Position numbers and translations under genes: made by a program
Shown: positions 1,990-63,570 of the stretch, one piece after another
Numbering within the stretch: the stretch's first letter is position 1
Layout: each line of letters begins with the position of its first letter
Notes under the pieces: generated by a model
Databases searched by the model: none
What the model was told of the DNA's origin: nothing
Seen by the model: the letters and a program-made list of their open reading frames with translations, nothing else
Source of the DNA: Coprinopsis marcescibilis
Lineage: Eukaryota; Basidiomycota; Agaricomycetes; Agaricales; Psathyrellaceae
DNA length: 64,000 nt
NCBI GenBank assembly: GCA_004369085.1
Contig: ML210211.1
Coordinates: 5,646-69,645 of the forward strand
Reading direction: 5' to 3'

Positions 1990-3701
1990 CTATGATAGAT
2001 GCAAGCTCGCAAAAGCAGGCGACAAACTCAAGGTTGGTGTTGGAGATGAGTCGTTACTGATGCTGCTTTGGTAGCTGAACATTGTCATCGGACGATCGAG
2101 TGAGACCTCTGAAGGAGGTCTCTCCAGACGGGTCCGGATTGATGGCGCGGATTTGGTGGTACTGCTACCTGATACGACGCGATGGGAACCCCGTGGCAGT
2201 ATATTGTCCGAAACAGAGGCAATTTCCACGACTTCCTTTCCGCTCTCTTGTTCCTTGCTGGCTGCTGCTTGCCTTTCCTCTGCCGCCTTCTTCTCCTTTT
2301 CTGCAAGCTCCGCTAACAATTTCTCGCGGCGTAGCCTTATCCGCTCCATTATTGCGTTCCTAGCCTGCTCCGTTCTCTGTTGCTCGACTTCGTGCTCAGA
2401 CGCCCCGTCGACGATTTGAGTCCGGGTGTCTTCTGCCCCTCCCCCCTGTCTGATACCTTTTGAAGTGTTCTGCTCGGAGGCTTCCTTCTCCGACTTCTGT
2501 GGGTCGAGCTGCTCTCTTCCCAATTCCTCGAGCTCCAAGTCAAGCATTTCGATGGACTTGTTCCCGGGACGTCCTGTTTCTTGACCCTCATCCTCATCCT
2601 CCTCATCCTCCTTATCCTCCTTATCCTCCTTATCCTCCTTATCCTCCTTATCCTCCTTATCCTCCTTATCCTCCTTATCCTCCTTATCCTCCCCATCCTC
2701 CTCATCCTCATCCACCTCCGCCTCCTCCTCCTCTAATCTCTGCTGCTCCCACAGCGATAAAACCACTTCACCTCTCAGCTCCTCAAGCTGACCATTTGAC
2801 AGGTCCTTCCGATCAGAACCCGCGTCTTCCTGTAAACCAATGGCACTGTTGTTCAGCATGGCCGCGATCGAAGTCCTGATACGCTGCAGCTCTGATTCCA
2901 GTGATTCGATTTCATGGGATTTTTGCATAGATTGAGAAACCTAATAAGCGGTTGGCAATGTTTGTTTATGAACTGCTATTAACGGCGTGGCGTGGACTTA
3001 CTTGTCTGTATCGTAAAGAGTTTTACGTGTTCAAAAAGCTTGCTTGAACTGACATGATAAGGCTGACCCACCGTCCTACTTCTGCTTCAAGGTTGCTAGA
3101 ATCTTGCTCGGCCTCTGCGATCCTGCTCTGGAGCTGGGTTATTATGGATTCATGTGCCTTCCTTGCCTCAGAGTGCGCCATTTGGTTGACTAACACCGCG
3201 CGCAGTAGTGCAGCACTGAGAGAAAGTGACGCAGGCTGCAAATAGTTCGCAAAAAGTATATAGTCATAATTATCATCGCAGCAAATGTCAGATGGTGATA
3301 TATAGAACAGGACTCACCTGGTGGTCACCAGCACTTATCAAACAATCAGTGATCGCTGTGTGCAATTTGGACACCTCTTCGATCGAGCATTTCTTCTGAG
3401 CAACTTTTGCCACTTGGTCTTCTAGCCGTCGGACCTCGTTGTTTATAACGATCGTACGGACAGAGTCCCTGGGAAACCTCAAGCGGCAAAAAGGGCAGGA
3501 CGGGGAAGTATGAGGTGAAGTTGTACCAATTATGCTTGCGCAGCAAGCATTGCACATAATGTGTCCTGAACAGAGATTTTACCAAGGTAGAGACAGCCTG
3601 ATCGTTGCATGCTCACCACATTGGATGGACTGGGGGAGGCGGTCAAAGCCATACTCCTTGAGACACACATCGCAGGATGATCCGGGGCCTAGTGCAAACA
3701 T
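1990..3701 (-). CDS. RING-finger coiled-coil protein with RPPSE tail
   Basis: The four-exon model complement(1990..2940, 3080..3235, 3318..3565, 3617..3701) gives 479 residues in frame. The first two exons encode an N-terminal C3HC4-type RING: CDVC near residue 10, then CGHIMCNACC, then CPFC. This is typical of an E3 ubiquitin ligase that binds an E2 through the RING. A predicted coiled coil follows (RRLEDQVAKVAQKK, then ESIITQLQSRIAEAEQDSSNLEAE). Next come a second helical stretch (residues about 165-230), a highly acidic segment with about nine Glu-Asp-Lys repeats, and a charged helix MERIRLRREKLLAELAEKEK. The protein ends with the window's recurring tail: RTRLERPPSEVS, then FSYQSS, then TPTLSLSP. 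The exon 3/4 junction has an alternative using a 4-nt micro-exon; the simple GTAGGA donor is preferred. Ligase activity is inferred from the RING; the function of the tail is unknown. Confidence 0.8.
2590..2705 (-). repeat. 9-nt coding minisatellite (Glu-Asp-Lys repeats)
   Basis: On + the sequence is a run of TCCTTATCC units flanked by degenerate TCCTCATCC copies. On the coding strand this gives about nine perfect Glu-Asp-Lys tripeptides inside a longer acidic stretch. Because the unit is a multiple of three, copy-number change keeps the reading frame. Confidence 0.9.
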
Positions 3702-4011
3702 GTGTTTCTCCTGGGTATCGGCCAATTAACGTTAACTCTGTTATAATCAAGTACAGTTTCCTCACCGTTGACGCGGATATTAACGTCAGCGACGTACCAC
3801 GGTACTACGGTAGGTGAAGAACCAAGTTCAACCAACGAAATGTTGACGGCGGCCCAAAGTTCGGAGTTTAACGTTGAGTACCAACTATAATCGTTATCTA
3901 AGCGCCGAATCATGATTGACCGATCCTTACACCCTTGTTGTGAGCAGAATCTATTGTACTTGGATGGTATATTTAGAACCAATGGTCTAAGGCTGCCATC
4001 AGAGACTTGGG
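3702..4011. other. Intergenic/5' region of the RING gene
   Basis: 310 nt between the RING start codon and the stop of the next tail gene. A 97-codon minus-strand open frame runs through it and overlaps the RING start in another frame. I see no family signature in it and treat it as chance or 5' UTR. Confidence 0.5.
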
Positions 4012-4959
4012 TTAGAAAGGATCCAGAGACTTGAAGGTCAGGGTCGGAGTCCGCCCAGGGGAAGGCCCTACAGTGCTTTGATAGCTGAAGGTCGGGGATG
4101 CCGGCGGAAGGGACTCTTCAGAAGGAGGTCTCTGCAATCGGGATCGCAAATGTCTGCTAGGCGCCAGTGAACCAAAAGAATGCTCGTCGCGCGGTTGTGC
4201 TCCTAACCCCGGCATAATCTGATTCTCGCTCTCCCATGTAATCCCCAGGCCTGGGCTGCTTTCATCTGTCTCCGACTCTTGAGTACGCTTGGCCTGCGGT
4301 GTTTCATTCTTGGACCCAATATCCACAGCGCTCAGTTCTGTGTACAATGACGTGTGCTGCTCCCTTCCCATGTCTCGCTCGAGTCTGTCTTGTTTGAGGA
4401 ACTCGAAAGTGGCCATGAGGTTCTCTCTCTCCGATCGCTCTCGCTGTAGCTGGGCTTCAAATCTCTGCCTCTTAATGCGCTCTCTGCTCAGATCCACCTC
4501 CAATTGCATGATAAATGGGTCTCCCTGTCCCACCGCTGCGGTTGGCTGTATGACTGCAAGTCTGGCGGTTATATTTTGATGCAGTCTAGTATTGCTGGTT
4601 CACGTACGCTGTGGTGATCTGCCCTGGTGGGATGGCCCCTGCTCCTCTTCGGGGCCTACAGTGCTCTTTGTAACTTCTCGATGGCAGGCCTCCGCCTCGA
4701 AGTCTCCTGCACATCCCACTGCCGTTATCCGTAACTCGTATTCCTGAGCAAGCTCTTCCCTGTACTGCCATTCGGCGGATTCATCGAGGACAAGCAATGC
4801 CTGCTGATACTCGGTTCTTATTCGGTCCTCGTCCATTGGGGCCAGCCGAAGCTGCTTGTAAAGGTTTTGAGTGAGGTCTTGTTTCATATCTTGAAAATCC
4901 TCCTGAATTCTGGCCCTGAGCGCCGCTTTCCACTGCTTATCAAGCTCTATCCCTTTCAT
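4012..4959 (-). CDS. Coiled-coil protein with RPPSE tail
   Basis: Two exons, complement(4012..4553, 4608..4959), give 297 residues. The 54-nt intron uses GTACGT and TTGCAG. The N-terminus (residues 1-90) is helical and charged: DKQWKAALRARIQED, followed by QNLYKQLRL and EYQQALLVL. The WK-x2-L-x3-I pattern recurs at the start of the 717-residue tail protein at 47436. Exon 2 opens with a coiled coil (LSRERIKRQRFEAQLQRERS). A Ser/Glu-rich linker and the tail RSRLQRPPSEES, FSYQST, TPTLTF follow. The last block is altered: LTFKSLDPF replaces LSLSP. No enzymatic domain is recognisable; function unknown. Confidence 0.75.
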
Positions 4960-5445
4960 CTCGTCCGAGCTTGCAATGGGTTGTGGTGAGAATACTTTGA
5001 ACGACGTGTCGTGTTAGGTGCGCTGTACGACGTGTTTGCAGCGACATCACCTACCACTTAATGAGCCGTATGCACGGTTAAAGGTGAGAGAGACTCCAAT
5101 ATACTGCAGGCAGTGTCAACGAAGGAAAAGAGGTACGGCCACACGAATGGCTCAAGCGCCGGTGTGCGATTCAACTCCGCTTGTTACACCATGCATTATG
5201 TATGACTCATGATGCCAAGGACTGTCGTCGCTGCTCCCGCCAAATTCGCGCCTCAGGCATCAAGGCTACTTATTTGACACAGTCCTGAGCAGTGAGAAAA
5301 GAGTAAGGATCCTCTGTGCAAATTTTGCGTTAATGCTGTCTGAACAGAGTATATGCAATCTGCAAGGCGTCGAGCTAGTGAATATTCAGAGTTTCAGATG
5401 AAGTGCATCCATTCATGTCAACTGTTTCAATATTGTACACATGAC
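4960..5445. other. Intergenic, no gene seen
   Basis: About 490 nt with no convincing coding frame. It contains the promoter side of the 4012-4959 gene and the 3' end of the first ABC transporter. Confidence 0.55.
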
Positions 5446-8400
5446 CTATAATTTGCCTGGAACTGGATGCAGAACTGCGTGTTCAGCGCGTATACGTAGA
5501 ATGTCGACTCTTTGAAGATTTGCTTCATCGCAAAGTGATCTGAAGATCGAATCCTCCTTGTCGTACAGGTTGAGGATAGTATCGAATTCGGCAACCTTTC
5601 CTTGGTCCATAACTAACACACGATCGTAATATGCTGGTTTCGCACATAGTGTCAGGAGGGACTCTGCAGAACAGAGGGGAAATGGCACAAACCAATGGTG
5701 CTTAATCGATGTGCAACGCAGAGTACAGTCGATCCCCTGAATTCCGTTTGAATAGTCTGTTGCAGTTTCGAGTCCATCTCAACATCAACGCTGCTTGTCG
5801 CTTCGTCGAGCACAATTATCCGACTTAATTTGACTAACGCTCTCGCAAGTGCAATGAGTTGTTTTTCTCCCGCACTCAAGTTCGAGCCTAAAAACATTTA
5901 ATCAGGTACAGATTTGAAAAAAGGTGCCAAATACCATGTACCTTCGTCTCCAACAACGGAGTCGAGGCTGAATTTGGCTTCAGTGAAAGGATCTACTGGA
6001 CCATCTCTAGGGAGTAGCCATGTCCTCTGAAGAATATGTATAAGCTCCGCATCTGTTCTTGAGCGCTGGGGGTCTCTGTGACCAATATTTAAACATGTTA
6101 GTGGCGTCGAACAAGAATATGACTTACAGGTTATCACGAAGTGTTCCAAACAACAGAACACAATCTTGAGGAACAAGGGTGAGCCGACTTCGCAAGGTCT
6201 CCAGACCAATGTTACGGATATTGACTCCATCGATTTCGACATGTCCGTCCGAGACCTCCACCATGCTGAAGGCATATAGTGAGAGATAGTACCAGACAAG
6301 ATCACAAAGTAGACGCTCACCGGAACAAAGCTTGCAAGAGCGAGCTCTTACCCGCACCTGTACGTCCCACGATGCCTATCTTTTCGCCAGATTGAATCTT
6401 GAAGTTGACCTCCTTCAGTACACGGGGCAATCCTTCCCGATAGGCCAGGTCAACGTGCTTGAATTCAATTCTTCCTTCCGCAGGCCATGATGTCGGAGGA
6501 TCGTCAGGGGTATGTAAGTCTCCTTCTGGTGTAATGTTTGCATAGTGTAGGATGCGCTCCACTGAGTTCATGTTCTGTTCAATTTGAGCGTATTGGGCAA
6601 CTATGTCAGCTAGAAATAGGTCAATATTGACTCAACATAGCTGAGAAAGGTCTCGCACAGAAGTATTGAGTCACTACAAACACAAGATCAACAATCGTTC
6701 AGGCAGAAGAGATGATGGCATACTTAGCAACGTATACGACAGCAGAACACCGGTCTGCGACGGATTGATTGTAGTCCTGAAGCCTGAGGCGAAAAGGGCA
6801 ATACCCAGAATCAAGACGTTTCCCAATAGATCGAGCCTCACAGCCAACCACCGCTGAATTGACACGGTCATGTAGTAGGCCCTGTTTTGGAGGTCCAAGC
6901 CAGTTTCAACCTCCTTGATTGAACGATTTTGTTCCCCATAGGCTCGGATGGTTGAGAGGCCAGTAAGGCTCTCTGCAAAGGTTGTCAGCCACCGTGGTTG
7001 GATGTGGTGATTCGTGAATATAGGCTTACCAGAGACCGACGAATAAAGAATCGAGCGATGGAGAGAATCCCAACGGTTCACCTCAACTGATGTCCGTCTG
7101 TAATAGAGAGATATGACCTGGTATATCGTGACCAGAGGCACAAATATAGTTCCGAGGTACGGAAAGACGTAGAAGACAAGGCCAACCGTTCCGAAGATAC
7201 GGAATAATGTATCCAAGTACTTCAGCCACTTGTCAATCCCGCCGACGTTGCTCAAGAGTCAATAAACGTACTTGGAATGAGACCATTGCCATGTCAATAT
7301 CAAGGGTATCCTGATCCTTGGAAAAGCGGGAGAGCACTCGCCCTGACATAGTTGTTTGTCAAATTCTCCAATAATATTCAGAAAAAAACTGCTTACCCAT
7401 CGGTGTGGTGTCGAAGAACGACATTGGAGCGCGGAGCACACCCTGAAGTGCTCGCTTTCCAAGAGTAAAGCTAGCCTTCAAAGCGGCCAATCTAATAACA
7501 CCCGTCAGTACCCTGTTCACCTGCATTCTCCTATAGGAATACGCGCGTAAAGCAGTAATTCAGAACAAAAGTCAATATAGCCTGTGCACCTCCCAACCCT
7601 GCGTAAATTGCCATATAGTGCCCTTGAGCGAGTCCAGGGATGCTTTCTGAAGACCAGAAGCCAAGGAACAACGCATTTCCAACTACACAGTCCGTGAGTC
7701 TCACACTTGGGCTTTTGAACTTACATGGGTCAGAAGGAACGTACCGGAGGCAAATTGAGTCAAGGTTAGCAGGAGCAAAAGCCACGGGCCCCAAGAAACG
7801 CCACCGGCAGCCTTGAGATAACATGTATAGGTTGCTCCTGACACTGCGCCAATCTTTCTCTCTTCCTCCTGCATCAGAGGCGTAGTTGACTCCATTCCCT
7901 TCTTCATGCCAGCTTTGAAGGTATCACCGACATCAGTTCCATTCTGCTTCCCACAGATTTGCTCTGAAGCCTTCGCCTTAACTTCAGGCTCACCATCACA
8001 GCTCGACTCTGAATTACCATATTCTTCTACGAGTCGAACAAAGATGGTGCTTGTTGCCATAAGATCCTACGAGGAAGTCATGTTAGTATCACTCACATGA
8101 AAGTATAGTATTTATGATGCTCACCGCGTATGTTCCTTGCTCTATGATTTGACCATGGTCCATAACATATATACAGTCCAGTTTATCCAGCGCATGAAGT
8201 GAGTGTGTAACGAGAATTCGAGTTCGATCAGCCAAAGGTCCATTCAGGAAGCAATTATTAAGGATCGCTTTTCCAACATACGCATCGACGGCTGATAGAG
8301 GATCATCGAGTAGGGCGATATCCGAGTTGGAATATGCAACTCTTGCTAGAGAAACTCGCGCCTTCTGGCCCCCTGTTCCGACATTAGGTTCAACTTTGAG

Positions 8401-11296
8401 ACTTCTCGGCGGAGATGAAAGTGGCTTACCGCTCAGATTGATACCCTTTTCGCCAATTTCCGTGTCCAAGCCATTCGGAAGCATTTCGATATCGCGTTCT
8501 AAATTGCAAGCTGAAATCACAGCGCAAAACCTATTAGCTTCTTGAGTGCCGTTCTGCCTCCAACCAGTGAATATGGAAACCCACCGTTGTTGGTCGTATG
8601 GCTGCCCAAACAAGATATTATCCCGAAGGGTGGCATTTCGGATCCACGCAGTTTGGGGGGCATATGCGAGGCGTCCTCCAAATCGCACCTCTCCGCGAGT
8701 CTTCCGCATTTCGCCTACGAGTGCCTGCAAAGCGGAGCTCTACGATACCATGGTTAGCTTATGTACCTCTCCATGCAACGAACCACATACCTTTCCTGAA
8801 CCCACTCTGCCAACAATACCAACAAACGCACCCTTCGATACGCTAAACTTGAAGTTCTTCAACTCGAATAGCTTCTCCTCATCCTGCCCGCTTTCCACCA
8901 CCGGTAAGAATCCAACGTCACTGTCGTTGCTTGTGTACTGTGGCAGTCCCAATCGGGGATTTTGGCTCCTCTTCTTGTCTGACTTTCGGAATCGTATGTC
9001 CTTATTATGACCGGTAATGTCTGGAGCTCTGGCAGTTTCCCAAGTAAAATCTCCATGTGCATCCACAGCAAAGTCATACGCCTGGCTCACGCCGTATGGC
9101 TCTGGTAAGTCCTCTGCGTCGAGGAAGGCACCTATACGAACAACAGCTACCAGTGCCTGTGAAAGCGAGGTAAGGACGAGGGGAAAGTATATCAAAGGTA
9201 TCCGAATAATCTAAAGAATAAGATTTTAGAAGGAAAATCTAAGCAAGGGTGCCTCGGGCTCACATTAAACAGTTGGAGAGCACTGAAGATAATGGAGACT
9301 TCAAGACTATGGCCAGTTAAAGCATAGGAAATCTAAGACCTCCATATGAGCTGGCTGACCAATTCTCTGACGTGCAGCGAAGACTTCTGACTCACAAATG
9401 AAAAGATCGAGGCAAAAATTGGAATAAACGTCATCACCGCAATCAAAGTTGAGCGCGCAACGCTAAAAGCAAGGGCTTAGGACAACACGGGGATTGCTGC
9501 CAGGTATGCACTTACGCGGTATTTCTGAGTGCAAGGATTTCGCCGGATCTCAAATCCAAAATTTGATTATTGTAGAAGCTTTCCCAAGCAAAGGACTTGA
9601 CGAGTCGAATTCCTTGCATGACCTAAAGGACGGTAATTCAGTCTGGAAGTGGGTGCTAACCATTCCGACAACTTGCCTCGCTGGTTAACCTAATCCTTTT
9701 ATCGGTGTATTTAACGCCATGTGCACGCTGTGCAAACATTATATTGACCAAAACAATTTGGATTGGGACGCCAAAAAGAAGAACTCCCAGCCCGACTAGC
9801 GCTGAATAACCCAGCTATTACACCCGTTGACGTCAGTAAGAATTATCATCAGACAAAAAGGAGGACCCAGTCACTTACCATTCCAATAACAAGGCCAAGA
9901 CCAATAGCCAACTAAAGGATGGTTTAGGTGAGAAAACCCCACAATGTCTATTTTCATCCTCACCTGGATAGGTGCAATCCACAGTCTAACGTTTGGACAA
10001 ATGATCAATACCAGCAAGGAATATCGCAAAGAGGCGACCGCAAATGTGAGCATTTACCGCAAAGCGGGACAACCTCGTCGTGTCCGTCGAGATCATTGTG
10101 GTAATTTGGCCAGAACTATGATTGATACGACCTCGGCCAGATATGCGTAACGCTTTGCGGGAAATCGCCCCGATGAGCTTGAATAGCAATTCAGCGTGAA
10201 TAAAAGAATGGTCGTCAACAATCACCTACCCCCGACCTCACATGAAGGCCGACCGTCATGGTTACTGTCAAACTGTTTGAGTGTCTTTCATTGTGATATT
10301 GTCCGCCGAACTTACAATGCATGGATCGGTTCGTTAACTGACAACGCATTAGACAATGGCGGAATGAATGGTATACTATCAGTGTGGCGTACCAAACTTG
10401 CTACCTCTGAGGATATGATAAATCAGCGAGCCGAGAAAACAAGCGAGAAAGGGGATCCCACGTTGCGTTGCGAACAAAGCGAATGCCAGCCCAACTCCGT
10501 ACAAAACCCCATGTGGTCTAGTCATCGAACCTGAGTCCAAAGCAGCATCCTGTTCGCCTTCTGACATGCGATAGAAGTTGTACGACTCCCCGAGCCACTG
10601 TAAAAGTATTCTCGTCAAGAGTGGGCTTGTCGTCTTCAAAACATCTATTTCCAGCCAACGGTAAACGAACAACTATAATCCGATGATCCTGATAGATACC
10701 AACCTGCGATGAGCTTCAAGATTCCGGACAACCACAGCTCGTGTGAAAAGGTGCGCGCAATGGCTTTGAACAGTGATCCATCATATGTCTTCGGTTCCTT
10801 CTTTGATTTTGATTTTGATTTTTTTGGGTGCTTCCCAGAGAACTTAACCGTTTCCGCCTTCTCCGACGTGGTATTAGAAGCGTCATCTACTTGCAGAGAT
10901 GATTCTTCTATGAAGTCTCGCAAGTGACGTGGTCGGGTTTCAGGCGGCACGCGAGCGTAGTAGTTGGCCTCAATCTTCCCAGTCTTGACGGTGCTCGACT
11001 CCTCTGGTGGTAGATGCCAGAAGTCTGCGAGAAACGGTCTGTTAAAGCGACATTCTCGTACAAGCGTCGCGCGAAACGCACCCTCTTTCTCCAGTGGTCT
11101 CGAGAAGCCGGCTTCGAGGAAGGGCGTAAGCCAGTGAAAGGTCGCCCGGGAGATTAAACTGTAAAAAAAAATGTTATGACATAGTTCGCATATTATCCTC
11201 TATCCGCACGTACTTTGCTGTCTTTTCAGGCACAACTTCACCCCCGCCAAACGCAGGCGGCGCCGGAGTAGGGTGGAATGGATTTGGAATGCGCAT
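5446..11296 (-). CDS. ABCC/Yor1-like ABC transporter, copy 1
   Basis: A full-length half-duplicated ABC exporter in many short exons. It starts at MRIPNPFHPTPAPP (11296), a beginning shared by all three copies, and ends after RAEHAVLHPVPGKL. Order: N-terminal cytosolic region, TMD1 (about 9.2-10.7 kb), NBD1 (about 8.1-8.9 kb), linker, TMD2 (about 6.6-7.8 kb), NBD2 (about 5.5-6.5 kb). NBD1 shows Walker A GRVGSGK (split by an intron right after the Lys), signature [16 protein letters not shown] with an intron inside it, and a degenerate Walker [14 protein letters not shown]2 shows GRTGAGKSS, a C-loop LSAGEKQ instead of LSGGQ, and canonical [10 protein letters not shown]. This asymmetry is typical of ABCC proteins. 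Yeast Yor1 relatives export oligomycin and other organic anions and drugs at the plasma membrane. The substrate here is unknown. Exact exon borders were not all resolved. Confidence 0.88.
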
Positions 11297-12059: not shown

Positions 12060-17845
<5,786 letters not shown>

Positions 17846-24760: not shown

Positions 24761-30535
<5,775 letters not shown>

Positions 30536-39194: not shown

Positions 39195-39196
39195 TA

Positions 39197-39993: not shown

Positions 39994-39995
39994 TA

Positions 39996-46925: not shown

Positions 46926-47435
46926 TTAATGTCTGTGGGACACTACTTTTCTGCTCTGGCGGAGATGGCATCGTATGATTTGTTTGGTAGAGTACAGTCT
47001 GGGGATTAAAGATATTTGTGAAGGGAAGACAGAAAAATGTAGCGGAGGTGAAGGTGAAGAGAACTTGCAAGTTTGCACGACGCAGACACCATGACTTGGG
47101 AAAGCAGTGCAGTTGGAGGCTCTTGCCAAACCCAAGCAATTCGAGTCTCGAGCCCTTGGCACTGCCACCAGTGCGGGCGCTTCAAGAGATTAGCGGATTG
47201 CCACGAGGCAGCCACACCACTCCAGAGATGCTGTGAGAACAGCATTTGAGCATAGGAGACCTGTCAGGCTCGATGAATTGTCTCAACAGACCTTTCCCTC
47301 TTCGCGGCATTCATAGGGCACTCACTGTGACTCGTGAGTACCGTACGCAAATCGACATTCTCAGACCATCTCACCATGCGCTGACAGCATAGTACTATCC
47401 AACAATCGAAGCACACGCAAACCGCGATTATTCCC

Positions 47436-49589: not shown

Positions 49590-50099
49590 CACTTTGAGGC
49601 TGTGTTTATTTTTATTTTTGACGAGTCACTCAAGTTTCTTCACGAGCGGGGTTGAGCGATGACGACATTAAGTGCAGGTCAACTTCCTGTACTCCAATAT
49701 ATATTTTATGGGTTCTTTATTCATCGTGTATCACCCCTGTCACCTAGTGTGTGGCCAGATAAATTTGGATACGCGAGATGTGTGAAAGTCGCGGCAACAC
49801 TGACCGAGGATGTTTGGGCTGCTGTATTGGTTTCAACATGTATACAAGAAGGTCCGCATACCATTGACGAAACTGAGAACGCTGTGGCACACAGTCGCAT
49901 CAGACCAAGCTACATGTGACACCTTGTTTTATTGATATCCTCTCCACCTTTCACAGCACTTAGACTGGCAGTGTTCAGGCGCTTGTGTGCGTATTTAAAA
50001 TCTGATGGCATGTGATGCTGTACCGCACAGCACTTGAAAACCATATATAAACGTTCAATGCAATACCAGACTGGCTTGCCACGCGCCAGCAACACCACG
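49590..50099. other. Intergenic with TATA box
   Basis: About 510 nt ending in TATATAAAC at 50044-50052, 48-56 nt before the next ATG. No gene seen. Confidence 0.55.
50044..50052 (+). promoter_or_regulatory. TATA box of the 50100 gene
   Basis: TATATAAAC 56 nt upstream of the ATG at 50100. The paralog at 52246 has TATATAAATA at the same distance. This favours ATG 50100 over the in-frame ATG at 50034, which lies upstream of the TATA box. Confidence 0.6.
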
Positions 50100-52200: not shown

Positions 52201-52245
52201 AAAACTTTAAGCTGACACAAACAACTAAGCCAACCCAGCGCCACT

Positions 52246-53073
52246 ATGTACCCAACCCAGCTTCTTGTCCCAGTATCCCAGTGGCCGCCTTATTACCCAG
52301 TTCAGCCCGCTGCACCTTTCTCTCCGTACTCAGCAAACTTCACCCCACCCTTCGGAGGCGAGCCTACCACTCTGACTGGGATGGGAAACCACAACCCCCA
52401 GATGGGTGTCCTTGTCTTTCTTCCATCGCTCCCTGGACGAACGAGCTCGTGTGGATCTCGTAGTACTAGCAAGTCAAGACGCACAAACCGAAGGACTAAA
52501 GCACCACCTCCGACTGTTTATACAGGGTCAGGGGGAGCACTGCGTCAGGGGTCGAATCGGACCGTAGTCGACGACGAAAGGATGAAGCAGCATCTGGAAC
52601 GAGAAAGAAGAAAACGGAAAAGGTTGGAGATGGAGTTGCAACAGGAACGACAGCGAAGGAAGGGAGCCGAGGCCCAATTGGCCCGGGTAGAGATGCAATC
52701 GCAATTACAGCAGGAACCTCAAAACCCGAAGCCAAAGGAACCCAGCCAATTCTACGAGATGGGTGTATTTCAAGCAACGTGCCGCCTCAGCCTCATGAAC
52801 GGTGCTCGGACGAAGACAGTTGAAAACCGCCCTAAAACTCCTCATTCAGCGTTGTTGGAGGGGAGAGAGGCCAAGCCGGCCAGCAAGCCTGCCCTGCGGC
52901 AGCGTATTCGACTTGAAAGGCCTCCATCAAGCGTATCCATTCACTCATGTGCGCGGCGATCCACACTCATCACCACATACACAATGGCAACAACTTGTCG
53001 CACAAAATCATACATCCCGACCTTGAATCTCGCACCATTATTATCCAGATTGAGCCTCATTTCTCGGAATTAA
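52246..53073 (+). CDS. Coiled-coil tail protein, tandem pair member 2
   Basis: Single exon, 275 residues, start MYPTQLLVPVSQWPPYYPVQ. Same architecture as the 50100 gene: Pro/Tyr-rich N-terminus, KAPPPTVYTG linker, coiled coil (MKQHLERERRKRKRLEMELQ), YEMGVFQATCRLSLMNGAR, and tail LRQRIRLERPPSSVS followed by YIPTLNLAPLLSRLSL. The N-terminal third has diverged most, while the coiled coil and tail are well kept, suggesting that these are the constrained parts. No known domain; function unknown. Confidence 0.78.
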   Translation: MYPTQLLVPVSQWPPYYPVQPAAPFSPYSANFTPPFGGEPTTLTGMGNHNPQMGVLVFLPSLPGRTSSCGSRSTSKSRRTNRRTKAPPPTVYTGSGGALRQGSNRTVVDDERMKQHLERERRKRKRLEMELQQERQRRKGAEAQLARVEMQSQLQQEPQNPKPKEPSQFYEMGVFQATCRLSLMNGARTKTVENRPKTPHSALLEGREAKPASKPALRQRIRLERPPSSVSIHSCARRSTLITTYTMATTCRTKSYIPTLNLAPLLSRLSLISRN

Positions 53074-53500: not shown

Positions 53501-55384
53501 ATGGCTCCTCCTCCCCCACCCCCCTTGATGCCCTTCCCCTTGACAAAGAATGTTGCCAAACCAGACCAGCAACAGACATCGTCCGAGTATTACCGGACTT
53601 CGAAGGATCGCAGCGAAGCGGTCCAAGTACAGTACGAAGCAGAACTCGCAAAGTGGAGCCAACGATGGATGCTTGGTTTGACGGCCCCAGAGGCGCAGCC
53701 AACCGGCCGCGTCAGCGTCTCACAGCAGGACGAGAGCAAGAGAGCTCAAGTATCAGGGTCATCGGTTCGATCAGGACCCCCATATGTCTACCACACAACC
53801 TTCCATTCGACTCCCAAGACTGGTGGCAGCAAACAATCCCATGCCCAGCCTAAGGACCATCGTTTTCAACGTAGCTCCAAACATCGTTCAGCAAAGTCCT
53901 TGTATTACTATCACTCATCGGCGGAGGACGACAGTAGCGACACGAAGCACCACACGCTCATCAAACCCCCAAACCACAACCCAACCTCTACATTTGCAGA
54001 ACGAATACGGCGTGAAGAGAGGGGCAATCAGAGTCGATCTGCAACGTCACCGCGAGCAACACAAGGAAGGCAACGAGGGATCCGGACAGCCACGGAATAC
54101 GCAAAGCACACCGCCTATTCTGGCAGAATCTGAGGGCGAACAACGGGCTCGAGGGAATCGGTCGCTCCCCCGTCGAAGGCAATCACAACATCCCACCTCC
54201 ACACGTCAGTTCATGCTGCCCCAGCTCACGAGCGTCCCCCTTGATTTGGAAAACGACGGGCTTGATGATACTCAGCGCCTAGAACCTGGGGAACAAGAAA
54301 CTCTAAGACCCCCGTCTTCATCTTGGTCTTGCTCGTCTCGTAATGGCGACCTCAAGGATGGGCCAAACCAAAATGACAAAAGCTCTGGGACAGGTGAGTA
54401 TTAAGTCCATCGTCTAAGCAATCACGCTCTTTGCTAATCGATCCATCAGCTGCCACACATGATCCTGACGAGGAAGAATCAGCCCAAGGACATGAAGATG
54501 AAGTTGAGAGGCTGAAGGCGAAGCTGAAGCATCAGGAGGAGCGGTATCGGGAAGAACAGCAGAAAGCAATGGAAAGCTTAGCAAAGGAGAAACGTCAGAG
54601 AATGAAGCTTGAGTGGGAGGTGCGGGATAGAGAGAAACTTGAAGAGGAAGGGCGAGAGAAAGACAGCTTGATTGCTAAACTGCAGGCGCAGAAGGCAGCG
54701 TTGGAACAGCAGATGAGGAATGAAGGGGAAAAGCAGGAGGAGGAGCGTGCGGACATGGAACGCCGATTTGAAGTAAAGTTGGTAGGAGAAAGCATTCGCA
54801 TTGAGCGGGAGCAGCAGGAAAAGGGGCGTTTGGAGAGGGTGATGTATGTGGCTGGGATCAATAAGGGAAAAGAGAGCTGGGCAGCCCTTGATAAGGAAAG
54901 AAAGGAGGAACGAGAGACCTTAGAGCGGCAGAGGGAAGAGCTGAAGATGGAACTGGAGGGCGAACGGAAGGGTCGTCGGCAGCTTGAACAGCAACGTCTA
55001 GCGCTGAAGCGGCTGGAAATTGAGTACAGGAAGGATCAGGGCAAGCTGGAACGCGAACGTCTCGAGCGAGAGAAGCTCGAAGTTGAACTTGCGAAGGAGA
55101 TGGAGCAACGGGAGAGGCTAGAGCTAGAGCGGCAGCACCTGGAAGCGTTGGTTGCGCAACTCAGCTCTCAGGTGTCTGGCGGGCTTTCTACTCAGCGAGC
55201 ACCAAACGAGGGTGCACATCGTTCTCATATTCAGAGGCCTCCATCCGAATTTTCGCTTGCACAGACGAATGGAGGGCTGCGAACGTCAGTCTTCAGTTAT
55301 CAGAGCAGCATCGCTACTTCGACGGGGCCCATACCCAGGCTGTCTCTGTCGCCGCATCTTTCTCCTGTGGGGCTCAATCAGTAA
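53501..55384 (+). CDS. Proline-rich/coiled-coil tail protein
   Basis: Starts MAPPPPPPLMPFPLTKN (53501). Three exons are needed. The first intron ends at TTCTGGCAG (54126); its donor is either 54012 or 54033, both keeping frame. The second is 54394..54449 (GTGAGT...CATCAG). The N-terminal half is disordered and Ser/Arg/His-rich. Exon 3 encodes a long charged coiled coil of about 230 residues (VERLKAKLKHQEERYREEQQ; LEQQRLALKRLEIEYRKDQG). The tail is a canonical one: SHIQRPPSEFS, VFSYQSS, IPRLSLSP. Likely a scaffold; no enzymatic domain. A decayed copy of exon 1 lies at 51160. Confidence 0.75.
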
Positions 55385-56021
55385 GAGATTTGGAAGATTC
55401 GATCCAATATGTGGATTTTCAGCTCCCAAAGCAGCATAGCTATTTTGGCGGGGCCTATACCCGGCACATAACATATATGTCTTTCGCCACATCTCTATTG
55501 GGGTGGTCTCAGTAACTGAAGGTGTCGAACTCCAACTGCTATATATACAAGCTGTGTGATCAAGTGTATTCAGCTCTAATATACATAATACAAGCACGAC
55601 GAGTCACGACTGCTGGCTGGAGCAAAAGCAGAAGTTATGGCGAAAGAGCAGACGATTATGTATAGTCGGAGATCTCCGACCTTGATTGAAGCGGAGATAT
55701 TATCCGCTCCAACCTCTGCTAGCCTGCCAGCGAGCCCAAGTTGTAGAATAAACCACATTGAAACCCGCGCCACATCAACCACCTTTTAATCTTATACTGC
55801 AGTATTCATGTTCGCCGTGACGATTTCAATGTCGAATCAACACGAAGTATGTGACAGGTTTTGACAGCTTCGGCATTTCAGAACAGCATTTTGGTGCCAC
55901 AGGCTGTGCATGTCCGACCTCTTCAGAGCCGTCTTCGCTCCAAACCGTCGTACCTCCCTCCCCACTCTGTCAACACTTCAAGCCATAAGCCAGCTACCTC
56001 CACCCCAAAGAGCGCAGTACG
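55385..56021. other. Upstream region with shared family element
   Basis: About 640 nt. It contains GATCTCCGACCTTGATTGAA+GCGGAGATATT (55671-55701), an element that recurs upstream of the 57898, 59286 and 61733 genes. From about 55835 it aligns with the region before 57898 (GTCGAATCAACA, TTCGGCATT...CAGAACAGCAT). Confidence 0.6.
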
Positions 56022-56984
56022 ATGTCGACAACAGGAGGCCACCAGCAACAGGCCCCTATGCAGAAGCCCAAAAAGAAAGTCCGGTTTTCGAGCACTGTTC
56101 AAGTCAACGACACAGGCACTGCCAGTATAAGTATGGTGCCTGAGCATCTAGTGCAAAGGCCAAAAGCACGGAGGTCGCGAAGGACGGTAGCTAATCCTTC
56201 GGACAACAATCCTGAAGCAATGGAGGTTGAGGCGATTCCACTGGTGCCGGACATGGACAAAGAGGACGGACAGTACGACCGAGCTCGTCTTATTTTGGAG
56301 TTCGAGGTGGAAAGACAGAAACATTTGCAAGAACGACGCGAAATGGAGGACAGACTCAATCAAGTGTTGCAGGAGAAGGATGCGCTGGAGAAGGAGCTGT
56401 TGACGCAGAAGAGAATGGTCATGTGGCTGGAAGGGGAGAGACAAAGGGCCAAGCAAGGACTGCTGGAACCAATTCTGGTGGAAAGGACTATATCTGCGGA
56501 TGACGCAGAAGCACCGCCCAATTCGGTTAACGGGTGGCCTGGCGCACAGTCGGTTCGTGAGGATGACGGGAAGCAAGGGCGAGCAAAGGCAGAGGAGGAG
56601 CAGGAAAGGACTCGCTGGTATAGGAGAGCGGCCATCTACTGGCAAGAGCATGAACGACTGGAGCGCGAGAGACACGAGTACTTTGTGGCTGAAAGAGAGA
56701 GGGAAAAACGCAAGCGAGAACCGGAGCTACCTCTTCCACAGGTGCCTGAAGAACTTTCCTCTGAGGATGACGACGAAATTCCCGACCATCATCAAGATTT
56801 ACCGACTCCTGATCCCAGGCCGCGGTTTAGGTTGCAAAGGCCCCCATCCGCAGCATCAACTTGTTATACGATTGGAGGACGGTCAACTTGCGAGTCGGTT
56901 TTCGGCTACGAAGGCAGTATAGCTGGATCTACATGTCCTACGCCTCGGATATCTCTGTCACCTTGGACTGATTTCGACGAGTAG
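56022..56984 (+). CDS. LTQKRM-type coiled-coil tail protein 1
   Basis: Single exon, 320 residues, start MSTTGGHQQQAPMQKPKKKV. Residues 18-22 (KKVRF, followed by SSTVQV) fit an RVxF-type protein phosphatase 1 docking motif. The core shared by three paralogs follows: YDRARLILEFEVERQKHLQE, then MEDRLNQVLQEKDALEKELL, then LTQKRMVMWLEGERQRAK, a coiled coil. A second shared block is AAIYWQEHERLERERHEY. After an acidic SSEDDDE run comes the tail: RFRLQRPPSAAS, VFGYEGS, TPRISLSPW. This is the only one of the three with the full N-terminus. Function unknown. Confidence 0.78.
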   Translation: MSTTGGHQQQAPMQKPKKKVRFSSTVQVNDTGTASISMVPEHLVQRPKARRSRRTVANPSDNNPEAMEVEAIPLVPDMDKEDGQYDRARLILEFEVERQKHLQERREMEDRLNQVLQEKDALEKELLTQKRMVMWLEGERQRAKQGLLEPILVERTISADDAEAPPNSVNGWPGAQSVREDDGKQGRAKAEEEQERTRWYRRAAIYWQEHERLERERHEYFVAEREREKRKREPELPLPQVPEELSSEDDDEIPDHHQDLPTPDPRPRFRLQRPPSAASTCYTIGGRSTCESVFGYEGSIAGSTCPTPRISLSPWTDFDE

Positions 56985-57897
56985 TCATGCTATCGCACCA
57001 ATCTATGCCATATGGACTAGCTCGTACTGATTTAAAATTATTTCTATGGTTACAAATAGTATTCGTTATAATTCATACATAAAAGGTTTGAACAAAGTTA
57101 TTATCTGCTTTGCGTACACAGGTCGAGGCAAGCCAAACCCGTTCCCCGGAGCAATTGGTGTGTCTGAATTGGCAACGCGTGGGCTTACCCGGAACGGAAA
57201 TCCACGGACATAGGTCCAGCAGCAAACCCATATACCATGACGCATGAAGCGTAAGCTTAAAGGCTTGAAGGGGTGAATCTACACGGCCCAGAGCCACTGC
57301 CACCAGCGCTTAGTGCTTAAAATTGACTCCGAGCACACATATAGCAGAGGCGCTCACTCGAGGTGCTGTGCTATTAGCTCTAGCTCCGATGCTTTAATTG
57401 TACGTATGAACACTGAGAATGATGTTGGATACAAGCACAACAAGTGCTATTCTGAGTAAATCTGAAGATGACGATGAAAACAGGCAGGACAATATCAGCC
57501 TCGGGCTTTCCCGGCTCTTATTGAAGCGGAGATGATCAAATTATTCTCATCGTCGCCAAGCAGCGGCGCTGCCCATGTTGAAAGCCACCACACCCTCAAC
57601 TGCAATAGTATGCTACCATAAAGACCAATGAAGCATGCACGACCTGGTTCCAGTGTCGAATCAACATAAGGTATGCACAAGGCCCTGACATTGTTTCTGT
57701 TTCGGCATTCCAGAACAGCATCTCAGTGCGACAGGAGCTGTGCAGATCCCACGTCTTTCGAGCTTTCTTTGGTCCTTACCGCCATAGCCTCTCTCTCCAC
57801 TCGCTATCGGCACTGAAACCCATAAACCAGCCACTTCTATCCAAAAGGCCATAGTACCGACCACCAATAAGTATCTGCGCAGACGCCCACGCCGCCC
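56985..57897. other. Upstream region with shared family element
   Basis: About 910 nt. It carries a shortened copy of the family element (TTATTGAAGCGGAGATGATC, 57518-57537) and, from about 57655, a stretch homologous to the 5' region of the 56022 gene. That homology includes the area which there encodes the N-terminus, but no equivalent open frame survives here. Confidence 0.6.
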
Positions 57898-58569
57898 ATG
57901 GATGGGAATCAATACGACCAAGCTCGTCTTATTTTGGAGTTTGAGGAGGAAAGGCAGAAACTTTTGCGAGAGCGATGTGAAATGGAGGATAGACTCAATC
58001 AGGTGTTGCTGAAGAAAGATGGGCTGGAGAAGAAAGTGTTGACGCAGAAGCGGATGATCAGGTGGCTGGAGGGGGAGAGACAAAAGGCCAAGAAGGACTC
58101 GAAGCTGCTAGAAACAATTCTGGTAGCAAGAATTGTATCTGCGCTTGACGAGAAACGAGTGCGAGCAAGGATAGAGGAGGGTCACCAAAAGATTGGTGGA
58201 GAGAGGCCAGCGGCCATCTACTGGCAAGACTTTTATGAAAGGCTGGAGCGTGAGAGACAGGAGTACCTTGAAGCTCAAGAAGAGATGGCAGATAAACGCA
58301 ATCGAGCACTGGCGGTACCTGTTCCACAATCGCCGGATTTAGAAGAATCTTCTTCCGAGGATGACGATGAAAGTCCCTATCATCAACATGTACCGCCAAC
58401 TGATGCCAGGCTTCGATTTCGATTGCAGAGGCCCACATCTGCAGCATCAAACGCTTCTTCAATTGGACGACAGTCTACTCCAGAGTTGCTTGACGATGAA
58501 AGTAGTATAGCGGGATCTGCATGTCCAACGCCTCGGATATCTCTATCACCTTGGATTGGTTTTAATTAG
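57898..58569 (+). CDS. LTQKRM-type coiled-coil tail protein 2 (N-terminally short)
   Basis: Single exon, 223 residues, start MDGNQYDQARLILEFEEERQ. It has the same core as the 56022 gene: MEDRLNQVLLKKDGLEKKVL, LTQKRMIRWLEGERQKAKKD, then ARIEEGHQ and AAIYWQDFYERLERERQEY, acidic SSSEDDDES, and the tail RFRLQRPTSAAS, ELLDDESS, TPRISLSPW. The second proline of RPPS is Thr here, and FSYQSS is lost. Relative to the paralog about 90 N-terminal residues, including the KVRF motif, are missing. It is therefore a shortened but still open copy. Confidence 0.72.
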   Translation: MDGNQYDQARLILEFEEERQKLLRERCEMEDRLNQVLLKKDGLEKKVLTQKRMIRWLEGERQKAKKDSKLLETILVARIVSALDEKRVRARIEEGHQKIGGERPAAIYWQDFYERLERERQEYLEAQEEMADKRNRALAVPVPQSPDLEESSSEDDDESPYHQHVPPTDARLRFRLQRPTSAASNASSIGRQSTPELLDDESSIAGSACPTPRISLSPWIGFN

Positions 58570-59285
58570 CGGGATTGTACTTTAAAAAAAAAATGAAAAT
58601 GTCTATTGTTCGCGTGCTTCACGTAGATCCTAGAAATGTAGTGCGTGTTTACTGAGACCGAAGACTTGGATCTGGGGGGTCACTGAACCGACCCAGAGTC
58701 AAGATGAAGAGTGCACGATCAACGCCGGCAAAACGACGAAGATCTCCAAACTTTATTGAAGCGGGGAATATGATTGTTCTCAAATATCACCCATGTGGAA
58801 AATTTGTGCAAGCAGCAAGTGGCTGCTGAGAACGCCGACGCTGAATACCCTCGTGTTTCGACAGAAGACGAGAGATTATGTCCAATTTGACGATTCCAGT
58901 GTTAACTGACATGAGGCACAGATAGCGCCTTTGCTGATCCGAGTAACAGCAACTCTGATGAGAGCAGTGCGCATCCCTGATCCCTGTTCTATACGCTGTA
59001 GCCGTTCCCTCAACTCTCTATCCTCACTATTACCCCACAAACTAGCCACCTCCTCCAAAATTGCCCCAAGGAATCAGGATACCCTCTGAGGTAGAAACGA
59101 CCCATCACGGTCCGTCGGAAATCAAATGTTTGACTTCACCCTATTGTAACAACCCAGAACCTGTCTGAAGAATCCGGGGCTTGCCGGCCATCTCCTGATC
59201 TAAGTACAACGGACAGTCCTTAGAACATGCGGTGTAAATCCGTCCGCTGACCATACTGCTACTGCGTAGCTCTGCCAAATCCGTC
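58570..59285. other. Duplicated upstream region, copy 1
   Basis: From about 58607 to 59080 this region aligns with 61268-61745. Shared landmarks: GTTCGCGTGCTTCA, GATCTCCAAACTTTATTGAA/GATCTCCGAACTTGATTGAC, GTTGAATACCCTCG, GTCCAATTTGACGATTCCAG, GAGGCACAGA and TTAGCCACCTCC-type ends. Here it leads to an unrelated coding sequence at 59286. Confidence 0.7.
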
Positions 59286-60916
59286 ATGACGGAATACGAC
59301 TACTCGCCAGAAGCTTGGGACCGCTATATTGCTGCCCAGGACAGAATTTCAAGGTTGGTGCAGATGTATGGATCAAGCACCAGTCAGCCAACTACTAGTC
59401 GTGAAAGCCAAGCAAGGCCGCTGCGTCACTCAGGGGTGGATCAGTCTATTGGTCGTACAACTACTTCAGCTCCGTCGCCTGCACAATCTCATCGCAGCAT
59501 CCCTGCCCCTCGACACCATGCGCGCACATCTTCCACAGAGTCCCTGGGTCGTCCACCGTTATCCAAGGCACATGCAATACCCACCGCCAATCAATACATT
59601 GGTCGTAGGGCAAGCACTTCAGCTACTCTCCCTCCAAGATCCCCGCCCAGCCTGCCTTACTCTCAACGCCATCCACGCTCGGCTTCCACAGAATCCTTGC
59701 CAGGTCGCCTACAATTGTCCGAGACCTATGCCCCAGCCACTGCCAGAAGCTACACAATGTCCAACGAGGATCTTCCACGGATCTCTGCTCGATTCATGAC
59801 CACAACATCCAGACCACCAGTATCCCCAGCTATCATTAACCGTGGTAGAGGCACAGACTCGGACTCGCACGATGAATATCCAAGCCAAGCGGCCCACAGA
59901 CGCAGCACTCGCAACCCAGTTGTGCCAAGCTACGACCGTCCGCAATTACCGTACCGCTCAGGCAGCAATCAATCCATTGGTCGTTCAAGTACCTCAGCTC
60001 CTTTCTCTTCAAGATATCCTCCCAGCCTGCCTTCCCTTCCTCGCCATGGGCGCTCAGCTTCCACGGAGTCCTTGGGCCGCCTACAATCGTCCAAGAACTA
60101 TCCTCCAGCCACTTGGAGCAAAACCATATCTAACGAGGATCTTCCATCGACCAATGCTCGATTCGTGTCCTCAAGACCCAGACCACCCGCATCCCCGGCC
60201 ATCAGGAACCACAGTAAAGACACGGACTCGGACTCACAGGACGACTCTCCAAGTCAAGCCGCCAACGGACGCAAAGCTCGCAAGCCAGGTGACCATCCGC
60301 AATCGCTGTATCGTCTAGGTACCGACCGGTCTACGGATCGCGGTGCAGATGCTCCTTCAGCTCCTTTGTATTCACGGTCTCATTACCCAGTCTCTCAGCA
60401 CCAGATACGCACAGCTTCCACACCATTTAATGAACTCGAAATCAAGCTCGAACAAGAACGAAAAAGGAGGGAGAAGCTTGAGACGGAGCTACTTAAGGAA
60501 AGAAAGCGACGGGAAAGGCTTGAAATGGAACTAAGGGAAGAAAAAAGGCGATTAGCAAAGGTTGAAGCGGAGTTGAAGCGAGAGAGGATACAGTGGGATC
60601 GGATTCGGTTGAAAGTAGAGGAGACACAGCGAAACCGCCGGGGTCAGGGGAGACAGATGTCGCAGAATCTGCAGGTCAAGGTTCCTCCGTTTACCCAGGT
60701 ATAATCAGCAAACGCGACATTCTTGTCGCTGCGTCCTCGTCACAAAGGAAAGAACGTCTTCGGCTGGAACGACCTCCGTCGAGCCACGTTTCTTCTTCCT
60801 CAGGAAATAGCGAGGCCACTAGATGTTCATCCACAACTATCAGCACCGTTAAGAGCATAGAGTCGCAATTCGTCCCTACAATGGATCTGTCGCCTTTATG
60901 GTCAAATGAAACCTGA
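59286..60916 (+). CDS. Ser-rich repeat/coiled-coil tail protein
   Basis: Two exons, 59286..60688 and 60748..60916 (59-nt intron, GTTTAC...CACAAAG), give 523 residues. The N-terminal 330 residues hold two to three diverged long repeats. Each has QSIGR-x-STSAP, SASTESLGR-like, TISNEDLP, SRPRPPASPAI and DTDSDSQDD-type blocks, Ser/Arg/Pro-rich and probably disordered. A strong coiled coil follows (LEIKLEQERKRREKLETELL). The tail is variant: KERLRLERPPSSHVS, no FSYQSS, and FVPTMDLSPLW. The donor was chosen because it is the one that joins the two frames with a normal intron length. Confidence 0.72.
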
Positions 60917-61732
60917 ACGTCCTACTTTAAGTATATATAAAATTCGTCCAACTGTAGAATAACATTGTTCCTAGGACACGCGAATACAGCACATTGACAA
61001 GGTCAAGTGTCACTGTGTCAGCACAGTCCTTCTCCAAAAAGCTTTCACACCTACTTCTTGCACGATCCAACCTGCGCAACGAGCTTCTGCAGCGAATGCG
61101 ATAGGCGAGGGGCAAACTTCACCGGATCCGCACTGGGTTAAAGCAACCAATGATATTCTGTAAGTTTGGCCCTTGATCGGACGCAAAGCCACGAAGAGAT
61201 GCACGGCGAACCCATGAGGCTTGAAGCTTGAAGGCTGCCATAGACCCGGAAGCTGCTGTGCAATGTTCGCGTGCTTCAAGTTCACGTAAATCCTAGGAAC
61301 GGGGGGTAATGCGAGTTTACATAAACCAAAGAGTTTAATCTACGCGTCGATGAACAAATTCAAAGTCAAGATGAAGAGTGAAATATTAACGGCAGAAAAA
61401 CAACGGGGATCTCCGAACTTGATTGACGCGGGACATATTGTTCTCAAATCTCATCCGTGTGGTCTGGCAGTGTGAGCAGCGAGTGTCCTCTGAGAATGCC
61501 GACGTTGAATACCCTCGCTTGTCAACAGTACTCAACAATGAAGGCAGAAGATTGTGTCCAATTTGACGATTCCAGTGTTAACTAACACGAGGCACAGACA
61601 GTGCCTTGGCCGATCGTAACAGCAACTCTAGTGAGAGCTGCGCTCATCCCTCATCTCCGTTCCATACCGTTGTAGCTTCTCCTCCTCACTCTATATCCGC
61701 ACATTACCCATAAATTAGCCACCTCCCTCGAA
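60917..61732. other. Duplicated upstream region, copy 2
   Basis: About 815 nt. The part 61268-61732 is the second copy of the 58607-59080 region, including the family element at 61408-61439. The 350 nt before it show nothing. Confidence 0.65.
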
Positions 61733-62379
61733 ATGTCCCCAGTATTACCAACGTTGACAACAGGAAGGGACTCGCGCCAGGCCTTTACGTACCGGAATCC
61801 CCCAAAGCAAGCCCAATTCTGGAGGTTTGATCGAGTTGACCAGAAGGGCAGCGTAGACCAAGTACATCTGAGGCCGAAACAACCCACCTTGCTGAGAGTC
61901 AACCACCCAACCGACCCTACCTACTATTATGAAGCCGAAAGCCCGAGCTCACATCGACACAAGAAAACAAAAGTAGCTGGAGAGTTGAGGGTAGAGACTC
62001 CTATTGCGTCGCCTGTTTATGTGGAACGCTATGACAGAATTCGCCTTGTGGCCGAGTTCGATGAGGAAAGGCGGAGATTTGTACGAGAGCGACAGGAAAT
62101 GGAGGGCAAGATCAATCAGCTGTTGCTGGAGAAAAAGGCGCTGCAGAAGAAGCTGTTGACGCAGAAGCGGATGATTAGGTGGCTGGAGGGAGAAAGGCAA
62201 AGGGCCAAGAAGCAGCTGTTGGAAACAATTCTGGTGGATAGGACTGTATCTTGCCCTGTTTGTTCCTTGCTCGCAGTTCGTTGTGAGCGAGCTAACAAGT
62301 GGCATGTGGACCAAACACACTTGTGTGGTGAGTTGGGGGTGGAGAGGCTCCGGCAGGAGACTCGAGCCAATCTCCAGGT

Positions 62380-62419
62380 NNNNNNNNNNNNNNNNNNNNN
62401 NNNNNNNNNNNNNNNNNNN
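62380..62419. other. Assembly gap (N run)
   Basis: 40 unknown bases beside the CCATAGGCATAA minisatellite, so the gap is probably repeat-caused and its true size unknown. Confidence 0.95.
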
Positions 62420-62550
62420 GCCTTTTGATAGGCATAAATAGACAGCCTGTCCATAGGCATAAAAAAGCACCTCTCCATAGGTGTAGCCTTTCAATAGGCA
62501 TAAGTGAAAGAGGCCTGTCCATAGGCAAAAGGACAATGTCCTATTGGCAA
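62420..62550. repeat. CCATAGGCATAA minisatellite
   Basis: Irregular copies of (T)CCATAGGCATAA and variants (TTTGATAGGCATAA, TCCATAGGTGTA, TCAATAGGCATAA, TCCATAGGCAAA), spaced about 18-35 nt, starting at the gap edge. Confidence 0.7.
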
Positions 62551-63570
62551 GGCACATCACTCGTACAGTCGCACGACGTGCAAGGTGAGGAAGCGTAGGC
62601 CCCATGGTCGAGTGGATGGATACAACAAGTTTGAGGCATAACGTGGGATACTAAGCATGTATTGGGGAGAATTCGTCTTTGTTTCGAGGTATGGCACAGT
62701 AAGTACACTGGTTGGGGGTTATGGTTAACGTAGTGTGTCATGCGAAAATGTAGGTCATCGTCGTTGGTGGGATTGATAGTGTTGAGTCTGGTGACGTGTT
62801 GCTGAAGGACGCTGAGGTCGTGTGTCTTGAAGGGTTTGAACGGTCGTTGTGGTTTGAGATATGCGTGTGAAGGGTTTGCCGATGCTGGCTCAGGGCTGCA
62901 TGTCCCGGAGATGTTGAGATCCTGTTTCCTTACTCGTCGTCACTGCCTGTGGCCGGAGGTGTCTCTGCGAGCCGTTGCAGTGAAATGAGGCTGTTTGCCG
63001 TTGATGAGGGGTCGAGGAGTAGCCACAAGGTGGATGGGTGGTTCTTGTCAAGCAAGCACGGGGTCACGTGCGCGTCACTGGGCAAGACTTTGTATTGCTC
63101 GTTCGCTCCGCTGCCTCGCAATCCACCAATCTCTGGACGATGGGAAGCAGGTTCAAGCAAGGATAGAGGAGAGACGCCAAGAGACTCGACGGAACAGGAG
63201 AGCGGGCATCTATTGGCAAGAGCACGAATTCAAAAGGCTGGAGGGAGATAAACACGAGTACTCGGAGGTTGAAAGAGAGAAGGAGGAACGCAAGCAAGGA
63301 TCTACACCGCCTATCCCACAACAGCCTCAGGAAGTTCCTTTCTCCAAGGATATCGGTGAACCACCCGATCTTGAAGAATCTCCAACGTCCAACGACAAGT
63401 TGCGACTCCGGCTGCAGAGGCCCATCTCTGCGGTATCGTCTTCCCAGACCATTGGAGGACTGTCTGCTTCTGGGTCCCTTTTTAGCTATGAAAGCAGCGT
63501 AGCTGCATCTATATATCCTATGCCTCGGATGTCTGTCTCACCACACATTCCGTGGGTGGGTTTCAACTGA

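Follow-up and report, generated by a model that had tools for sequence, protein, structure and literature searches.

C-terminal sorting tails that are common to otherwise unrelated proteins exist, for example on the C-terminal domain proteins of the bacterial type IX secretion system, and chimeric genes, too, have precedents. Here, we analysed a window of 64,000 nucleotides of Coprinopsis marcescibilis (contig ML210211.1, positions 5,646 to 69,645 of the forward strand), in which twelve genes end in the same conserved tail of three short blocks. As with the type IX proteins, one tail is carried by many bodies; in contrast to them, the organism is a eukaryote, and several of the bodies are truncated copies of extant genes of the same genome. 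A second comparison can be made with the Helitron-carried genes of Pleurotus, also an Agaricomycete, as described in PMC4289320: in both cases gene copies stand in new surroundings, whereas the copies in C. marcescibilis share a coding tail. We propose that the tail may be a transferable docking peptide through which copies of host proteins, truncated and in part inactivated, are brought together on a single partner, and we give this reading as a whole a probability of roughly 0.47. Its parts differ in strength. The history of a cassette and its capture by gene copies is very probable, a docking function shared by the tails is tentative, with the odds somewhat against it, and any partner that might be named for the tail would be an improbable choice.

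The genome analysed comprises 36.3 Mb in 448 contigs, which are designated here by the letter C and a number, and the window corresponds to C66:5646-69645. At least 17 tails are present in this genome: twelve in the window (T1 to T12; Table 1), one 2.4 kb downstream of it in a gene that we call K2, and one each on C104, C401, C220 and C239. This number is a lower bound, based on searches of the genome with single tails and on a profile scan of the DNA from those loci. All twelve tails that the initial annotation had placed in the window are translated in frame to their stop codons at the coordinates in Table 1. Each known tail was scored with a profile built without its own subfamily, with E-values calculated for 4,751 open reading frames (ORFs), and all 17 scored between 17.6 and 61.8 bits (E from 7.8e-4 for K2, the weakest, to 1.4e-17). 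Among the controls, 1,000 shuffles per tail reached 15.7 bits at most (11.0 bits for those of K2), and other ORFs reached 14.8 bits, the best of them overlapping a damaged second tail copy behind T8. All twelve window tails are thus real and C-terminal, with a conservation that chance would not produce.

In the alignment of the twelve window tails, two arginines, a proline and a serine of block 1 and the opening proline of block 3 are invariant, and the arginine of the RPxS core lies 39-56 residues from the C-terminus (40 in T4, by coordinates). Block 2 had been described as clear in about nine tails; by eye, it is clear, with variants, in eight of the twelve (T1-T5, T8, T9 and T12), vestigial in T10, and absent from T6, T7 and T11. 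When block 2 was written out as an exact DNA pattern, its serines as TCN, it had no match in the genome (one match for the reversed control), because some serines of this block are written as AGY. The statement that no described domain has this signature is supported for the twelve window tails, for which a Pfam scan returned no family at E up to 1 and a profile matched no solved structure in the PDB. A protein search with the T3 tail region found T3 alone among seven candidates, a shallow search that cannot show absence elsewhere, and a search with a tail profile (A2, scored over the whole T3 protein, P0001) found T3 and one protein from the same contig (E 2.8) among 5,880 candidates but missed the other tail genes of the same genome, so that absence elsewhere is not implied. 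A literature search, at the level of listings, turned up nothing on such a tail, which has so far been seen only in C. marcescibilis, the searches of other species being shallow.

Several genes with the tail are shortened copies of genes that lack it, a relation that an annotation made from the letters of the window could not reveal. Four of them, namely K1 (the gene with the T4 tail), K2, and the tail genes on C239 and C220, are 5' copies, by now diverged, of genes that lie elsewhere in the genome and do not have the tail, with DNA identities of 80-87% over the longest pieces. First, K1 and a kinase gene on C176 share 81.9% DNA identity across 1,401 bp, a stretch that takes in the intron; the similarity runs from 103 nt before the start codon to position 44261, which is 75 nt before the tail, and the C176 frame runs on. 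Second, K2 is 80.3% identical over 1,090 bp, again with the intron, to a kinase gene on C43, and weaker similar pieces reach position 2026 of the DNA piece L038, the K2 tail beginning some 400 nt later. Third, the C239 tail gene has a neighbour on the same strand, about 4 kb off, with 94% amino acid identity over 118 aa (77.7-90.6% in DNA, by piece), and the frame of this neighbour runs on to a different end. Fourth, the C220 tail gene is a copy of the 5' part of a C103 gene that is 1,838 codons long (identity 82.7% over 765 bp, with main further pieces at 72-78%; 87.3% over 629 bp in a second DNA comparison), and it consists of two frames that overlap, which indicates a short intron or a frameshift between them. 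A profile scan of 767 ORFs in the DNA from C43, C176, C103, C152, C256 and the C239 neighbour found no tail (best score 5.1 bits).

Weaker relationships were seen for other bodies. The RING-like part of T1 is 50% identical over 42 aa to a sequence on C256, and the first 26 aa of T11 are 69-73% identical to sequences on C33 and C20, neither of which showed a tail in the single-tail searches of the genome. The N-terminal ORF of T2 is 40% identical to the N-terminus of the C220 gene, and the N-terminus of T5 is 35% identical to this gene, which groups with C103 and C152, and the T3 body is 42% identical to the C239 tail gene. The twelve bodies had been called otherwise unrelated, and they do differ; T6/T7 and T9/T10/T12 are nevertheless paralogues, and T2-T6 are weakly alike. 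Of the upstream domains proposed, the kinase fold is real and belongs to K1, a pseudokinase, whereas the RING finger is recognized by eye alone and its exon in the window has no Pfam match.

K1 and K2 are Ran1-like by descent, given the identities above and an intron at the same place as in their parents. Since they keep this intron and sequence before the start codon, they are DNA-level duplicates, and an origin as retrocopies was rejected. Their bodies copy the Ran1/Pat1-type kinases of Agaricomycetes down to the place of the intron, but differ from them in altered catalytic motifs and in a tail that replaces the native C-terminus. We compared them with the best 120 of 544 kinase homologues (from 7,994 scored candidates; mostly named Agaricomycetes), among whose names are 'other/RAN protein kinase' and 'negative regulator of sexual conjugation and meiosis'. 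HRDxKxEN is matched and DFG is present in 119 of these 120, and both parents have intact catalytic motifs. In contrast, K1 reads HRDLRPEN (HRD kept, K changed to R) and EFG, and K2 reads HQNLTLQS and DFS. Judged from these motifs, pseudokinase appears to be a fair description of both, and K1, unlike K2, might keep some activity. The tail profile found no tail in the same 120 homologues (best score 2.9 bits), and most of the ten homologue C-termini inspected show a motif of the W-F-x-x-G-[RK]-F type, like that of the C43 parent. With no tail among these homologues and such ends in its place, the tail is most likely an acquisition of the kinase copies; that the tail is the native end of Ran1-like kinases was rejected, as the parents are also without it.

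The codons of the tail indicate selection on the peptide. In 17 aligned rows, of which T4 is mis-anchored in block 1, the proline after the invariant arginine is encoded by CCT (9), CCC (4), CCG (2) and CCA (2), and the block 1 serine by TCA (6), TCT (5), TCG (3) and TCC (3), never by AGY, while the block 3 proline is written with all four CCN codons. Of the 136 possible pairs of tails, 14 were computed, and in these the ratio of nonsynonymous to synonymous differences per site (pN/pS) was 0.30-0.55. As the key residues are invariant and the silent positions vary, the peptide itself is selected, and the tail is under protein-level constraint. For the copies, pN/pS against the parent, a value that includes the branch of the parent, was 0.33 (0.24-0.45) for K1, 0.35 (0.28-0.46) for K2 and 0.46 (0.33-0.62) for C220. 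With P0002 as outgroup, 70 changes fall to K2 itself and 7 to its parent (66:7 and 56:9 with two other outgroups), and K1 has 19 against 7 with C43 as outgroup. At d = 0.05, 0.10, 0.15 and 0.19, a simulation with substitutions only left a kinase stretch of 330 codons open in 193, 33, 12 and 4 of 1,000 runs, respectively. The copies look relaxed but kept, which is less clear for C239. For K1 and K2, the loss of catalytic motifs in frames that are open and have kept the tail suggests a non-enzymatic role.

The kinship of the tails conflicts with that of the bodies in three places. The T4 tail is nearest in DNA to the C239 tail (76.9% over 147 bp), with no match outside the tail, although only one of the two bodies is a kinase. 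K2 and T11, whose bodies are unrelated, share 79 bp at 87.3% identity, ending 21 nt past the K2 stop codon and 3 nt past that of T11. C220, T1 and C401 have the tail and the 3' flank in common (71-75%, extending 215-235 bp past the stop codon, with gaps), though the C220 body groups with C103. In addition, the second tail copy just behind the T8 stop codon has a local alignment score of 73, compared with a maximum of 31 in 500 base shuffles. These conflicts, the shared flanks and the stray T8 copy indicate that tail DNA moves or duplicates. The shared 3' ends of T1/C401/C220 and of K2/T11 and the stray copy can also be taken to mean that the tail spreads as a by-product, in that a recombination-prone 3' end (tail, stop codon and polyadenylation region) rescues truncated copies and the peptide has little function, and the fast evolution of the copies, as in K2, agrees with this explanation. 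We regard it as unlikely, though deserving serious attention, because the T4 and C239 tails are alike while their 3' flanks are not, the invariant proline and serine use all four CCN and TCN codons, and the tail pairs have the low pN/pS given above. Assembly chimaeras are unlikely in view of the 10-20% divergence of the copies from their parents.

Very probably, the tail is a cassette that encodes about 45 codons of C-terminus and can be transferred, its 3' flank being shared along with it in some cases, and 5' copies of several unrelated host genes have lost their own 3' part and end in this cassette. The best interpretation of three short blocks kept on different truncated proteins is a peptide for docking or targeting to a single partner, and the docking or modification module suggested in the initial annotation is a plausible reading of the motifs. 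The tail may be a docking peptide that is disordered, in which R-x-x-S of block 1 is a basophilic phosphosite and P-x-phi-x-phi-S-P of block 3 a hydrophobic motif. It would bring the truncated proteins, including the two pseudokinases, to one common partner, at which they might act as competitors or scaffolds, not as enzymes.

Among described docking systems, 14-3-3 proteins have the canonical ligand motif Rxx[pS/pT]xP, and many of their ligands are without the proline at +2, according to passages of PMC8786283. An arginine at -3 of the serine, the form of a basophilic kinase site, is present in all 17 tails, and a proline at +2 in none, so that only one half of the canonical motif is found and the 14-3-3-like site proposed earlier holds for its R-x-x-S alone. 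The tails resemble 14-3-3 ligands in this half and differ from them in the missing proline and in two further conserved blocks. The shape of block 3, P-x-hydrophobic-x-hydrophobic-S, is like that of the PxIxIT docking motif of calcineurin (passages of PMC3582496 and PMC8786283), but most tails have L or M where I is usual. The tail could accordingly be that of a calcineurin substrate, with a weak docking site of the PxIxIT type in block 3 and, in block 1, the phosphosite on which calcineurin acts. A relaxed pattern, P[^PG][IVLF][^PG][IVLF][TSHEDQNKR], is matched by 10 of the 17 tails, and it occurs in 292 of 3,400 shuffles and in 27 of 373 other ORFs with a length of 100 aa or more; once M is admitted at the hydrophobic positions and A at the final one, all 17 match, again post hoc. 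We consider a calcineurin tail quite improbable, because the pattern was applied after the tails had been seen and seven of them fail it, position 3 is L, M or I but never V, and the proline that follows is unexplained. Neither 14-3-3 nor calcineurin is put forward here as the partner of the tail.

An ordinary gene family, in which the duplicates of one ancestral tail gene became unrecognizably different in their bodies without any fusion, would account for the clustering of 12 of the 17 tails in one 64 kb window, with a 13th 2.4 kb beyond it, and for the simple paralogues T6/T7 and T9/T10/T12. For K1, K2, C239 and C220, pure divergence of one gene was rejected, since their bodies have DNA parents of three kinds without the tail, and the three conflicts in kinship contradict it further. 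As a general explanation it is very unlikely, and it is possible for T6-T10, T12 and C104.

Several points weigh against the docking hypothesis and the capture history on which it builds. Body searches with T6/T7 and the T9-type coil gave tail genes only, with no tail-less relative, and T8 and C104 were left out of these searches. The comparison of gain and loss with other species covers the kinases only, not the C239 or C103 families. The tail pairs used for pN/pS are not independent, and gene conversion could keep the tails alike. The pN/pS intervals of tail and body overlap in six of seven pairs, and the only separating pair, T1/C220, aligns unrelated bodies; the tail is not demonstrably more constrained than homologous bodies. 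Finally, the C239 copy has a pN/pS of 0.62 against its parent, with an interval (0.40-1.02) which means that this copy could be near neutral.

Two related genes with NACHT/NPHP3_N and TPR domains stand beside tail genes, at L038 2668-6610 (-) and L042 1990-6042 (-), the former convergent with K2 at a distance of 106 bp and the latter adjoining the C401 tail gene; the weight of this adjacency depends on how common such genes are in the genome. It is far-fetched that the tail genes form a decoy system, in which truncated copies of the fungus's own regulators, brought by one tail to a common receptor or scaffold, would be bait for a parasite or a rival nucleus attacking the real proteins, with the NACHT-TPR (NLR-type) genes as guards. 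An 85 bp stretch downstream of T11 (window 61052-61136) is 83.5% identical to part of the L038 NACHT-TPR gene, and a duplicated segment (74%) lies behind T10 and T11 (58607-59068 and 61264-61741). At some distance behind the stop codons of T1, C401 and C220 (window about 1755-1850, L042 and L045), one stretch is conserved and is perhaps a 3' untranslated element. On C220, a stretch of about 1 kb occurs in two copies that are 86% identical (L045 5455-6496 and L046 646-1684). The C401 tail gene looks decayed, and a minisatellite-like repeat lies upstream of it (L042, about 7994-8271). ABC transporter genes occupy much of the T2-T3 interval. A region of about 5.9 kb is present in three copies (window 5471-11296, 12070-17845 and 24756-30513, the third inverted) with about 69% mutual identity, the first two with ABC transporter matches. 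ORFs at 253-1517 (-) contain SH3-like sequence, Sla1-like by eye. The window has two runs of N (39480-39529 and 62380-62419), the second inside the N-terminal ORF assigned to T12.

Table 1. Tails and associated gene models; positions refer to the window unless a contig is named, and scores are from profiles built without the subfamily of the tail.
Feature	Position	Strand	Score (bits)	Gene model and remarks
T1 tail	1990-2139	-	47.5	Last exon 1990-2940, with an upstream exon (3288-3578) that is RING-like by eye
T2 tail	4012-4149	-	33.1	Final ORF 4012-4599; N-terminal ORF 4600-5013
T3 tail	42270-42425	+	54.5	Annotated protein P0001 (FA15DRAFT_756964, hypothetical protein, 430 aa)
K1 (T4 gene) exon 1	42972-43551	+		Gene model; Ran1-like pseudokinase, DFG replaced by EFG
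K1 (T4 gene) exon 2	43629-44476	+		C176 similarity stops at 44261; tail from 44336
T4 tail	44336-44476	+	44.8	
T5 tail	49419-49589	+	31.2	ORF 47385-49589, charged, coiled-coil-like
T6 tail	50796-50990	+	23.4	ORF 50016-50990
T7 tail	52894-53073	+	31.8	ORF 52216-53073, paralogue of T6
T8 tail	55220-55384	+	61.0	ORF 54398-55384, charged, coiled-coil-like
Second T8 tail copy	55418-55515	+		Damaged; repeats the final 93 nt of the T8 tail DNA directly after the T8 stop
T9 tail	56817-56984	+	44.0	ORF 55989-56984
T10 tail	58405-58569	+	30.8	ORF 57871-58569, paralogue of T9
T11 tail	60749-60916	+	30.5	ORF 60566-60916; N-terminal ORF 59238-60704
T12 tail	63397-63570	+	47.0	ORF 62989-63570; N-terminal ORF 61676-62428
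K2 tail	C66:72023-72172		17.6	Outside the window, 2.4 kb downstream; K2 exons at 627-1206 and 1264-2561 of piece L038

In conclusion, if the docking hypothesis is true, C. marcescibilis would have arrived at a new protein network in an uncommon way, by repeatedly joining a single conserved C-terminal peptide to the 5' copies of unrelated genes that persist without it; for four of the bodies, the tail-less parents provide a matched control.

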